The notes under the pieces: model-generated
Seen by the model: the letters and a program-made list of their open reading frames with translations, nothing else
Told to the model about the DNA's origin: nothing
The model's database searches: none
In this document: piece after piece, positions 23,987 to 27,449 of the stretch
Layout: the number at the start of each line of letters is the position of its first letter
How positions within the stretch are numbered: position 1 is the stretch's first letter
DNA from: Myxococcales bacterium 68-20
GTDB taxonomy: Bacteria > Myxococcota_A > Polyangia > Polyangiales > Polyangiaceae
NCBI GenBank assembly: GCA_001899635.1
Contig: MKVQ01000043.1
Coordinates: 186,001-250,000, forward strand
Reading direction: 5' to 3'
Length of the DNA: 64,000 nt
Translations under genes and position numbers: made by a program

Positions 23987-24649
23987 ATGAAACCCGTCCT
24001 CTACGTCGGCAATCGGAACTACTCGTCGTGGTCGCTTCGGCCTTGGCTCGTTCTCACGTGGGGTGGGATCGCCTTCGAGACGCGCGTGGTCGCGCTTGGT
24101 GGTGCTGGTTACGGGAAGCGGCAGATGGAGTCGGTGCTCGCGATCTCGCCGAGCGGGACGGTGCCGGCGCTGCACGTGGGAGACGAAGTCGTCAGCGACT
24201 CGCTCGCGATCTCGGAGTGGGCCGCAGAACAGGCCCCCGGCCTGTGGCCGTCCGATCCGACAGCGCGGCTTCATGCGCGCGCAGCGACGTGCGAGATGCA
24301 CTCCGGCTTCCCCGCTCTCCGCGCCAATCTCCCGTGCAACATCCGCCGGCGCGCAGCGCCGCGCGAGCTGTCCGAGGACACGCGCCGCGAGGTCGCTCGC
24401 GTGGAGGCGCTGTGGACGTCGCTCCGCGCACGTTTCGGCGAGCAGGGCCCCTACCTCTTCGGCTCGGCTCCGACGATCGCAGATGCATTCTACACGCCCG
24501 TCGCCACTCGGTTCCGGACCTACAGCGTCGCGCTCTCGGAGGAGGCGCAGCGCTACGCCGATACACTCCTGTCGAATCCGGCCTTTCGGGCGTGGGAGGC
24601 AGAAGGCAACGCCGAGCCGTGGGCGATGGACGCCTGGGACGACGCCTGA
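23987..24649 (+). CDS. Glutathione S-transferase family protein
   Basis: This 220-residue cytosolic protein has an N-terminal thioredoxin-fold GST domain. The segment Asn-x-Asn-Tyr-Ser-Ser-Trp-Ser-Leu-Arg-Pro-Trp, with its candidate catalytic Ser, is characteristic of a bacterial GST subgroup. The cis-Pro in Gly-Thr-Val-Pro-Ala-Leu and the following Asp-Ser-Leu-Ala-Ile mark the glutathione site. The C-terminal domain is all-helical and contains the N-cap box Pro-Thr-Ile-Ala-Asp-Ala. It probably conjugates or reduces electrophiles; the substrate is unknown. It ends with an acidic tail. Confidence 0.88.
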   Translation: MKPVLYVGNRNYSSWSLRPWLVLTWGGIAFETRVVALGGAGYGKRQMESVLAISPSGTVPALHVGDEVVSDSLAISEWAAEQAPGLWPSDPTARLHARAATCEMHSGFPALRANLPCNIRRRAAPRELSEDTRREVARVEALWTSLRARFGEQGPYLFGSAPTIADAFYTPVATRFRTYSVALSEEAQRYADTLLSNPAFRAWEAEGNAEPWAMDAWDDA

Positions 24650-25868
24650 GCCGTATCCGTTCGCGATGACGCGATGAGCGGCGAAGCGCGAGTCGTTTCG
24701 CCTCGGCTTCGTCTCCGGCAGCGGGGCTCGCCTCGTGGGGCACCGAGCTCCGCATCGCCACCGGAAGGCGAGCGAATGCGTGCATACCCCGAGCAAGGCG
24801 TCCCCGGGCGACAGCGACGTCGAGCCAGGGGCGGCGAGCGCCCGGGGTCGGAAGGCGCGGGGGCGCCGGGCGGAGCGCCGACCGATAAGCGCCGCGACGT
24901 GCCCTAGGCCCATCCCACGCAGTCGACCGTTCGACGCACCGCAAGGCTCGACCCGACGAGAAAGCAAACAACATGCGTTGCTCGAGGTCCTCGGGGTAAC
25001 CGCTCGTTTCCGTGTCCGATGACGATTCGGATTTCTCGCTCGACGCACTCGGGACGCTGACCGGCGCGAAAGCGCGGGTCGTCTCGACCGGGGCTTGCTG
25101 GCTACGAGTCGCGTCCTTCGTGCGCGGAAGGCCGTTCGACGCGATCGAAGCGTCGGTCGCCCGCAGGGGTTCCGGTGAGCCGCGATGACCTGACCGGCGC
25201 CCGAGGTCTTCGGACGCGGTTCATCTACCGGATGCGTCGCGGCGGCTTCTCGAGCTTTCCCCGACGCTGCGGGACCCGGCCTGCTTCAGGACGAGCGGCT
25301 GCGAGAGCGAGTCGAGCCCTCGAGCCGATCGTCCGCCAGTCGCCCGGTCCATGTTCGATGGCGATTTCCGAATTCGCGCTTGACGTCATTGGAGACGATG
25401 ACCGGAGCAAAAGCGCGGGTGATCGCGTCGACCGGGCCGTGCTGGTAGAGAGTCTGCGTATTCCGTGGCGATCGTGTACGGAAGGCCTCGCGACGAGATC
25501 GAAGCGTCGGTCGCCCGCCGGGGTTTCCCGTGAGCCGCAATGACCTGACCGGCGTCCCGCGACGTTGCGGGGGGGCCGGCCTGCTTCAGGACGAGCGGCT
25601 GTTACATCGTTTGCAGCTCGAGAGAGAGAGTCGTGCCCTCGAGCCAATCTTCCGCCGGTCGCTCGATCCATGTTCGATGACGAATTCCGAGTTCGCGCTT
25701 GACGTCATTCGAAAGGATGACCGACGCAAAAGCACGATTGGTCACCTCGACCAGGTCGTGCTGGCAAGGAATCCCGTTCTCCGTGGCGATCGCGCGCGGA
25801 AGGGCTCGCGACGTGATCAGAGCGTCGATCGCCCGCGGATGGGGCCTTTCCGTGAGCCACGAAGGTGC
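24650..25868. repeat. Non-coding region with three degenerate ~0.3 kb tandem repeats
   Basis: From about 24990 to 25868 the sequence consists of three imperfect copies of one unit. Landmarks are a 26-nt identity at 25276-25301 and 25576-25601 (exactly 300 apart), a TTGACGTCATT-containing block in copies 2 and 3, and a GCGTCGGTCGCCCGC-like block near 25150, 25503 and 25822. Copy 1 is the most diverged and lacks the 5' part. The last copy runs directly into the HNH endonuclease gene. From 24650 to about 24990 I see nothing recognisable. The open frames across the repeats are not conserved in all copies, so the unit is probably non-coding. Confidence 0.65.
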
Positions 25869-27449
25869 ATGTTAGAAGCGCTCATGGACAAGCTGGGGGA
25901 TCTGTCCGACGAGGACCTGCTCGCACGTCTGCGCGGGCATGTCGGCAAGGGCAACGTCTGGTGCGCGCAGCTCATCGCGTACCTCGTCGAGGTCGAGGAG
26001 CGGCGCCTCGATCGAATTCACGCGTGCTCGTCATTGTGGGACTTCTGCACGCGCAAGCTCGGGATGAGCGAGAGCGAAGCGCACCGTCGGATCGCAGCGG
26101 CACGCGCCGTCCGGCGCTTCCCTCAGGTGCTCGGCTACATCGAGCGGGGCGTGATCCACCTCTGTGCTCTCTACGCGCTGCGGAAGCACCTAACGAGCGT
26201 CAACGTCGACGAGCTGCTCCGCGAAGCGTCCGGCAAGAGCACGCGGGAGGTCGAGAAGATGGTGGCCGCGCGCTTTCCTCGTCCGGACGTCCCGGCTTGC
26301 GTCGAGCTCGTCGCGGCGCAAGCGCCGCTGTCACCGATATCGCCGGTGTCCGTCGCAACGCCGTCGCCGGTGTCCGTCGCGATGCGCTCCGATTCAGTGC
26401 CGGCGTGGTCTCTGTCGCTAGCGGCGCCGCCCGCGCCCGGACCTCGGCAGCGGATCGAGCCGCTCTCGGCGACGAGGTACCGAATCGAGCTCACCGTGAG
26501 CGCCACGACGAAGGAAACGATCGACCGCATCAAGGACCTGATGCGCCATCGCAACCCGAGCGGCGATCTGGAGACCATCCTCGACGCATCGCTCGCGCTG
26601 CTTCTTGCCCAGCTGGAGAAGGAGCGGCTCGGCAAGACGCCTCATCCACGAGGCAGGAGGCGTAAGCCGGCCGAGGCGACAAACGCATGCTCCTCGTCCA
26701 CCTCGACACATGTCTTGAGCACGACTCGGGATCCGACCGCGCCCGTCGATGTGGGGGCGACGGCGGACGATCCGGTCGCGCACGTGCGCTCGGAGGTCAC
26801 GATGCGCGCCCCGCACGGGCGCGCACGTGTGGGGACGGCGGCGGGCGATCCGGTCGCGCACGTGCGCTCGGAGAGCAAGACGCAGGATCCAGGCGCGCAC
26901 GTGCACGCGGACACGGTCAGCGGTAACCAGGGAGTGTCGGTAGCCGCGCCTGCGAATGCCGAGCCGAAGACGGCGGAGCCGGCCATGTCCACGCCTGCAA
27001 CGAAGGCGGCGCGGAAGGACTCTCGGTATGTCCCGAGAGAGCTGCGGCGGGAGGTCTTCGAGCGAGACGGCAAGCAGTGCACCTACGTGGGCCCCGACGG
27101 CGATCGCTGCCCCGCCCGCGGGTACCTCGAGCTGGATCACATCCGCCCGAAGGCCCACAGAGGGACGGAAACGGCAGCCAACCTGCGGGTGAGGTGCAGA
27201 GCGCACAACGCGCTCTACGCCGAGCAGGTCTTCGGCCGCGCGCACGTCGCGGGCCGCATGCACTTGCATCATCGCAAGTTCGCGCCGCCGGCACCGACCT
27301 CCTTCGAGACCTCCGCCCGAGGTCTGCGGTCCCCGGGCTTTCGCGAGCCCGAAGTGCGTCGAGTGCTCGCGACCCTCGCGAAGAAGCGCGACATGGAAGC
27401 CGCTCCCGTCGAGACGATCCTGCGCGAAGCGCTGCTCGTCCTCACCTAG
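25869..27449 (+). CDS. HNH endonuclease domain protein (multi-copy myxobacterial type)
   Basis: This 526-residue protein has a helical N-terminal domain (about 1-140) with Leu-Ser-Asp-Glu-Asp-Leu-Leu-Ala-Arg-Leu and Ser-Glu-Ser-Glu-Ala-His-Arg-Arg. A Pro/Val-rich linker and a second helical stretch near 200-265 follow. Residues 288-352 are a low-complexity 13-residue repeat. The C-terminal HNH nuclease (about 397-470) has Phe-Glu-Arg-Asp-Gly-x-x-Cys, Leu-Glu-Leu-Asp-His-Ile, a downstream Asn (Ala-Asn-Leu-Arg-Val-Arg-Cys) and His-Asn. Active-site residues look intact. Homologues of this layout recur in Myxococcota; their function is unknown. The start is either ATG 25869 or ATG 25884; the latter lies 5 nt after TAGAAG. 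An in-frame extension to 25530 is open but lies within the repeat. Confidence 0.8.
   Translation: MLEALMDKLGDLSDEDLLARLRGHVGKGNVWCAQLIAYLVEVEERRLDRIHACSSLWDFCTRKLGMSESEAHRRIAAARAVRRFPQVLGYIERGVIHLCALYALRKHLTSVNVDELLREASGKSTREVEKMVAARFPRPDVPACVELVAAQAPLSPISPVSVATPSPVSVAMRSDSVPAWSLSLAAPPAPGPRQRIEPLSATRYRIELTVSATTKETIDRIKDLMRHRNPSGDLETILDASLALLLAQLEKERLGKTPHPRGRRRKPAEATNACSSSTSTHVLSTTRDPTAPVDVGATADDPVAHVRSEVTMRAPHGRARVGTAAGDPVAHVRSESKTQDPGAHVHADTVSGNQGVSVAAPANAEPKTAEPAMSTPATKAARKDSRYVPRELRREVFERDGKQCTYVGPDGDRCPARGYLELDHIRPKAHRGTETAANLRVRCRAHNALYAEQVFGRAHVAGRMHLHHRKFAPPAPTSFETSARGLRSPGFREPEVRRVLATLAKKRDMEAAPVETILREALLVLT
26730..26924 (+). repeat. 39-bp in-frame minisatellite inside the HNH gene (5 units)
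   Basis: Units start at 26730, 26769, 26808, 26847 and 26886, spaced exactly 39 bp. Units 2 and 4 share 27 identical bases (26769-26795 and 26847-26873). Each encodes 13 residues on the pattern Asp-Pro-x-Ala-His-Val followed by a variable part; unit 3 is the most diverged. Because 39 is a multiple of three, copy-number change would keep the nuclease domain in frame. Confidence 0.85.

Follow-up and report, generated by a model that had tools for sequence, protein, structure and literature searches.

The HNH nuclease gene of the window (the whole stretch of 64,000 nucleotides that was analysed) lies on the plus strand at 25884..27449, stop codon included. It encodes a protein of 521 amino acids and was characterized through its open reading frame, domain searches, and a predicted structure. 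Directly 5' of it, a segment of about 0.2 kb is repeated three times head to tail, on the same strand, in imperfect copies called L1, L2, and L3. When scored with a profile HMM built from 14 leaders of the host genome, L3 itself included, the gene-attached copy L3 (25652..25883) has an E-value of 1.2e-75, L2 (25334..25540) one of 3.6e-48, and L1 (24999..25185), the most degenerate of the three, one of 2.7e-32. Spacer 1 (25186..25333, 148 nt) separates L1 from L2, and spacer 2 (25541..25651, 111 nt) separates L2 from L3. Upstream of the array there is an open reading frame at 23987-24649 (+), whose translation presumably represents a glutathione S-transferase-like protein.

The first-pass annotation had described degenerate tandem repeats of about 0.3 kb leading into an HNH gene. 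Three imperfect copies are indeed seen both with the leader HMM and by self-alignment of the array (550 columns, 72%, E 6.6e-75), and the array runs to the start of the nuclease gene, L3 ending at the ATG (25884). Within it, 25303-25454 and 25622-25773 match over 152 nt at 82% identity, and a 62-nt family has three members (25103, 25457, and 25775). A 26-nt identity reported to recur after exactly 300 bp does so, at 25276 and 25576, where it sits in spacers 1 and 2, outside the conserved core. The unit size was misjudged, however, since a core of about 0.2 kb plus spacers of these lengths places the copy starts about 335 and about 318 bp apart, not 300. Likewise, the TTGACGTCATT block thought to be common to the copies is intact at 25380 in L2 and at 25699 in L3, but the first copy has TCGACG (25040) in place of TTGACG. 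The statement that no reading frame is conserved agrees with the 1- and 2-base indels between leaders, and a coding leader was rejected because the copies differ by indels whose lengths are not divisible by three.

The predicted structure of the nuclease, made from 14 sequences, has a mean pLDDT of 61.6, with confident N- and C-terminal parts and disordered linkers. It suggests a protein composed of a ParB/Noc-like domain (about residues 22-133, encoded by 25947-26282), an HNH domain (about residues 377-453), and a tail that resembles RuvA domain III (residues 471-521). Model residues 19-133 align with the DNA-binding part of Noc/ParB (Z 9.4, rmsd 2.5-2.7, 101 residues), residues 471-521 with RuvA domain III (Z 8.6, rmsd 1.1-1.2), and residues ~374-454 with HNH nucleases (Z up to 6.9, rmsd 3.5), where, by the tool's own warning, a Z under about 13 may reflect a common arrangement in helical bundles. 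The best Foldseek E-value for the model is 0.30, and Pfam ParB gives no match to the protein. The N-terminus in the window matches DUF222 (PF02720) at E 2.8e-4, with 20.7 bits against a cut-off of 24.4, and two of 14 relatives match this family at E<=1 (best 9.9e-4). A C-terminal HNH nuclease domain is indicated by the sequence matches together with the model: PF01844 (HNH) is found in 14 of 14 relatives at E<=1 (best 2.5e-5), the window protein scoring 17 bits, under the cut-off of 21.4, and the best match to PHROG HNH families is at 9.8e-10. RuvA_C matches in 8 of the 14 relatives (best 8.5e-9), and PADLOC contains no family that matches at E<=0.1. Among named genomes, MAGs of Labilithrix, Polyangiaceae, and other Myxococcota contain the best protein relatives.

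The host genome comprises 11.9 Mb in 52 contigs. When it was searched at the DNA level with the array stretch, 15 places were recovered (40 of 131 candidates were scored). Fourteen of these, the window included, lie directly 5' of a copy of the same gene, on 11 contigs, and the fifteenth is a 39-nt piece located further upstream of one of these copies. A protein search returned the same copies together with fragments that have no 5' end. No gene-free leader was found elsewhere in the genome among the scored candidates of the DNA search. The 14 leaders can be aligned from about -235 to the ATG; beyond that point similarity drops sharply and the sequence is mostly unrelated. Certain subsets share more, up to about -400, so that a longer unit may have been copied in the past. 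At 24672-24729 lies a block of about 60 nt that contains an inverted repeat and also occurs far upstream of the copies at L046 (C16) and L051 (C40), at differing distances; it may be a dispersed hairpin or an outer end of older date. The expectation that the repeat unit always precedes homologous HNH genes, as opposed to occurring only here, therefore holds for the leader, which stands before every one of the 14 host copies found with a 5' end, and not for the threefold array, which was found at no other locus. With the 14-leader HMM, 11 of the 14 copies lack a second leader piece, and degenerate additional pieces are present at two other loci, C43b and C16.

Two short boxes stand out within the leader. 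The TTGACG box (25699..25704, +) has its first T 185 nt before the ATG; it is invariant in the 14 host leaders, where it starts 183-186 nt before the ATG. The other, TGTTAGAAG (25870..25878, +), is a putative extended -10 element, so read from a TGnTA located 14 nt before the ATG in 14 of 14 host copies and from its distance to the TTGAC box; with a -10 in this position, the mRNA of the nuclease gene would be leaderless or nearly so. L3 is the only copy in the array with the full layout, as both L1 and L2 are without a -10 box and a start codon. Both boxes recur at nearly the same distance in G003 (2 of 2), G016 (3 of 3), G058 (4 of 4), and loci L133-L136. They are present in three of five loci of G005, one more having TGGACG at the box position, and in three of the four read in G023, the fourth being without the 5' part of the gene. 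The box lies at -195 in G039, and no TTGAC box was found in G009, G004, or G043, in which the start positions are uncertain. In one clade of homologues (L134, L360-L366, and L370), about 40 nt lie between the -10 and the start codon and look like a stem-loop, of the form CACCCCG...CGGTCCCG...GGGG or similar.

Among 58 genomes, the host included, a leader match at E<=0.001 is seen in four, which outside the host extends over no more than 22-55 nt, and a protein match in 19; between families, the sequence that separates the boxes cannot be aligned. Of 377 genomes of the phylum that were searched, 181 had some match, in many cases to the HNH part only. Several relatives have multiple copies, in line with the earlier claim that the family is multi-copy in Myxococcota. 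From this search, 21 loci with a near-complete 5' end were used for a test of the layout, with the host genome, G005, G023, and partial matches left out; one locus was too short, and 16 of the remaining 20 have TTGAC(A/G) at -270 to -170 of the match start. (When all 60 orders of the five letters are taken as a permuted control, the mean is 0.78 and the next best order reaches 6.) The box is absent from this interval in G187, G181, G307, and G296. Without G039, G124, G059, and G099, which had been seen earlier or are close to earlier leaders, the count is 12 of 16.

Counted from the first T of the box, the best -10, which was chosen within 158-192 nt, lies at 170-175 nt in 41 of 44 leaders, the 14 from the host among them, and at 181-182 nt in the other three, which belong to G039 and G231, members of one genus, and to G262. 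These two independent shifts of about one turn suggest that the box spacing is helically phased. A TTT at +8 to +10, which played no part in the selection, occurs in 76-84% in 25 sequences; the host family deviates from it. The strict pattern, TTT included, matches at 22 of 380 loci, several of which are one place counted twice, and by their coordinates all of the matches are leaders of the gene or leader-bearing derivatives; it has no match in 36 control stretches (576 kb). Without the TTT, the pattern has a single match in the window, at L3, where 0.06 would be expected; a match was obtained in 6 of 100 shuffles.

Neither box appears to have the partner of an ordinary promoter. A σ70 promoter at the TTGAC was considered and rejected: there is no normally spaced -10, and the mean best match to TATAAT is 1.76 versus 2.20 in shuffled sequence (25 sequences). 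Nor was a -35 found preceding the -10 (2.56 versus 2.64 shuffled, again in 25 sequences). A structured leader RNA is not supported either. The RNAalifold covariation term is +0.76, with changes on both sides in 6 of 50 pairs; folding z-scores of 16 leaders on the plus strand range from -2.7 to +1.3, the two below -2 being the window and L134; and within 24600-26000 no RNA family reaches its gathering score, a single Rfam match lying far below.

The gene is mobile in relatives. In G023 (same family, other genus) it lies inside an element with a sharp left end. Comparison of 36 distinct left flanks with 31 right flanks yields 18 identical pairs of 10-mers and one pair with 9/10, all at one offset, as against 0-2 pairs at other offsets. 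Two of the 18 pairs have both ends on one contig; in the other 16 the ends fall on separate contigs, the assembly being fragmented, and their pairing is inferred. Many G023 copies are internally deleted, including numerous MITE-like derivatives, and C217 has inverted ends of about 149 bp. A short C-terminal transposase piece from G023, which gave no plasmid match and one chance Pfam match, led to the transposase of G058, a genome of the same genus in five contigs. Both ends are present in 12 of the 16 G058 loci that were read. With the best pair of ends taken, 10 of these 12 have a 10-bp duplication (nine exact, one 9/10), and two have none. Downstream of the nuclease gene lies a transposase that matches PF01609 at 3e-7, above the cut-off, and PF13808 (DDE_Tnp_1_assoc) at 17.6 bits against a cut-off of 32.3; PF13808 has no match in G000, G005, or G023. 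Unbroken matches to both nuclease and transposase are found at L337, and in most other copies of G058 the transposase is internally deleted or the nuclease frame is changed. Target duplications of 10 bp together with short imperfect terminal inverted repeats are typical of ISAs1, and we take the G058 elements to be ISAs1-like. With transposase, terminal repeats, and a duplication of fixed length in one unit, the G058 gene is a passenger of such a transposon; loci L193, L194, L196, L197, and others in G023, and L336-L351 in G058, represent a transposon family with 10-bp target duplications that carries the HNH gene. Target duplications, which the first-pass annotation had suggested looking for at the boundaries of the repeat unit, exist in the sister genus around whole gene-carrying transposons, and not around the repeat units. 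Near the 14 host copies, no convincing transposase of the G058 type was found (best E 0.19), nor were paired transposon ends or target duplications, one isolated end-like word being present at C24. What the copies in G005 (L111, L112, L119, L120, and L207) have in common is another set of sharp ends and, behind the gene, rearranged modules rich in G+C; no target duplications were seen there by eye.

How far L1 and L2 have decayed can be judged from the divergence among 13 host copies (78 pairs; C5a, whose gene is internally deleted, was omitted). Mean divergence is 0.30 in the distal, 0.27 in the middle, and 0.15 in the proximal third of the leader. In the first 125 codons it is 0.20 at four-fold sites, 0.05 at first and 0.04 at second codon positions, and in the 80 nt past the stop codon (nine copies) it is 0.33. 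By these values, drift in the leader is nearly unconstrained apart from the short boxes and the part close to the start. The proximal third is raised in L1 (0.24) and L2 (0.22), and their other thirds are no worse than those of attached copies. At columns conserved in other leaders the mismatch is 0.10 in L1 and 0.07 in L2, versus 0.02-0.14 in attached copies, and the 52 conserved columns contain on average 6.5 gaps in L1 and 2.1 in L2. As the mismatch in L2 is no higher than in functional copies, L2 may have a function. A tree of the leader cores joins L2 with L3 (support 0.936) and places L1 apart from them, weakly with C5b (0.738).

Tandem repetition is frequent around the gene family. A direct repeat of at least 50 nt is present upstream of 6 of 14 copies and downstream of 4 of 14, compared with 2 of 54 control gaps (Fisher p 6e-4 and 0.014). 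This comparison used one BLAST setting on noncoding stretches with mean lengths of 1032 (upstream), 1086 (downstream), and 1076 nt (control), and its control gaps, of at least 400 nt, come from twenty hand-picked 16-kb stretches of the host genome as delimited by a crude home-made gene caller. A wider control gave 3 of 80 gaps in G000 and 1 of 50 in G005. At L049 (C43b), L050 (C9), and L058 (C5b), the 3' end of the gene, its RuvA-like part, is tandemly repeated after the stop codon, and the repeated segment has nearly identical limits in C43b and C9.

Taken together, these observations make it rather probable that the leader is a control region copied together with a multi-copy nuclease gene, and that in the window a tandem duplication took in the leader and about 0.1 kb besides. 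The leader would move to new sites along with its gene and act on it in cis, and a protein, perhaps the nuclease's own ParB-like region, may bind the distal box. From the tree, L2 and L3 would have split after their own lineage had left the other copies. L1 and L2 would then be decaying by-products without function, formed where DNA near these genes is prone to tandem duplication, of which nicking by the nuclease is one possible cause. For the most part the repeats would be an ordinary by-product, and the gene family next to them is unusual, with a control region that was not expected.

The idea of a repeated cis-acting site was correct insofar as the repeat unit includes a conserved cis-acting block. 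That the repetition itself was selected, with additional upstream TTGAC sites raising the local concentration of a regulator in the manner of auxiliary operators, would accord with the retention of TTGACGTCATT in L2 and with the low mismatch of L2 noted above. It is nevertheless unlikely, because the box is lost in L1, the promoter-proximal third has drifted in both L1 and L2, and the 11 copies in which no second leader piece was found argue that extra sites are not needed. The homing-like amplification proposed by the first-pass annotation, in which cleavage by the nuclease in or close to the leader is followed by a repair that duplicates the unit next to the gene, fits the adjacency of gene and repeats, the enrichment of direct repeats around the family, and a protein model that combines a DNA-binding-like region with an HNH domain. 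It fares poorly, and we regard it as very unlikely: with no gene-free leader among the scored candidates of the host genome, no empty target is known; the sister-genus duplications flank whole transposons; RNA families at the site are all under their gathering scores; and the spacers contain no recognisable remnant of the nuclease gene. Hardly probable, finally, is an origin of L1 and L2 from adjacent insertions of leader-plus-gene elements that lost their genes by internal deletion, for which G023, rich in deleted derivatives that retain the leader and gene fragments, offers a precedent, and for which a 26-nt stretch opening spacer 1 resembles the 3' part of the gene, but only at E 0.068 in the genome search, and a nucleotide model of the whole element detects no gene remnant above chance in either spacer (best E 0.056, elsewhere).

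Under the preferred reading of a copied control region, the repeats themselves are probably by-products; their significance is that they led to a nuclease family that is multi-copy in several Myxococcota and transposon-borne in one genus. In the control region of this family the spacing of two boxes is constant even though the intervening sequence cannot be aligned between families. A bolder proposal, which we hold only tentatively and consider rather unlikely, is that the leader represents a helically phased long-range control region in much of the Myxococcota. The two partnerless boxes, about 165 bp apart (about 16 turns; about 17 in two lineages), would act via a DNA loop, either as a split promoter with RNA polymerase at both or as an operator through which the nuclease's own ParB-like region limits its spread. 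The tandem leader copies would in that case be stray extra loop sites, and the leader would provide a naturally occurring system in which to test how bacterial promoters are acted on from afar, as well as an entry point to a class of mobile nuclease genes that is widespread and little studied. Among titles and the beginnings of abstracts in the open-licence literature, none was recognised as concerning this leader or HNH passengers of ISAs1, which is weak evidence of absence.

Several known systems share parts of this arrangement. IscB resembles it in the HNH part (NCBIfam NF040563, 14 of 14 relatives, best 8.2e-8) and, with its guide RNA, in having a conserved noncoding stretch ahead of the nuclease gene. 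The match, however, covers positions 181-238 of the 314 in the model, at 26.1 bits versus a cut-off of 175; an identity with IscB was rejected, as the HNH part alone matches and the full-length model with its RuvC parts does not. Unlike the guide RNA, the leader shows neither covariation support nor a consistent folding signal. ParB/Noc/Spo0J are similar in the DNA-binding part with which model residues 19-133 align, although no Foldseek E-value is under 0.3 and identity is 9-21% among the matches listed. ISAs1-like elements with a passenger gene are represented by those of G058, with their short imperfect terminal inverted repeats, 10-bp duplications, and PF01609 transposase, whereas no transposase, ends, or duplications were found near the copies of the window's genome. 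An excerpt of one report counts REP13E12/HNH endonuclease/DUF222 among repetitive elements near insertion sequences (PMC10589994). Although the DUF222 match of the window protein stays under the curated cut-off (20.7 versus 24.4 bits), the REP13E12/DUF222-HNH genes of Mycobacterium are alike in being dispersed, multi-copy genes for a protein that joins a DUF222-like part to an HNH domain.
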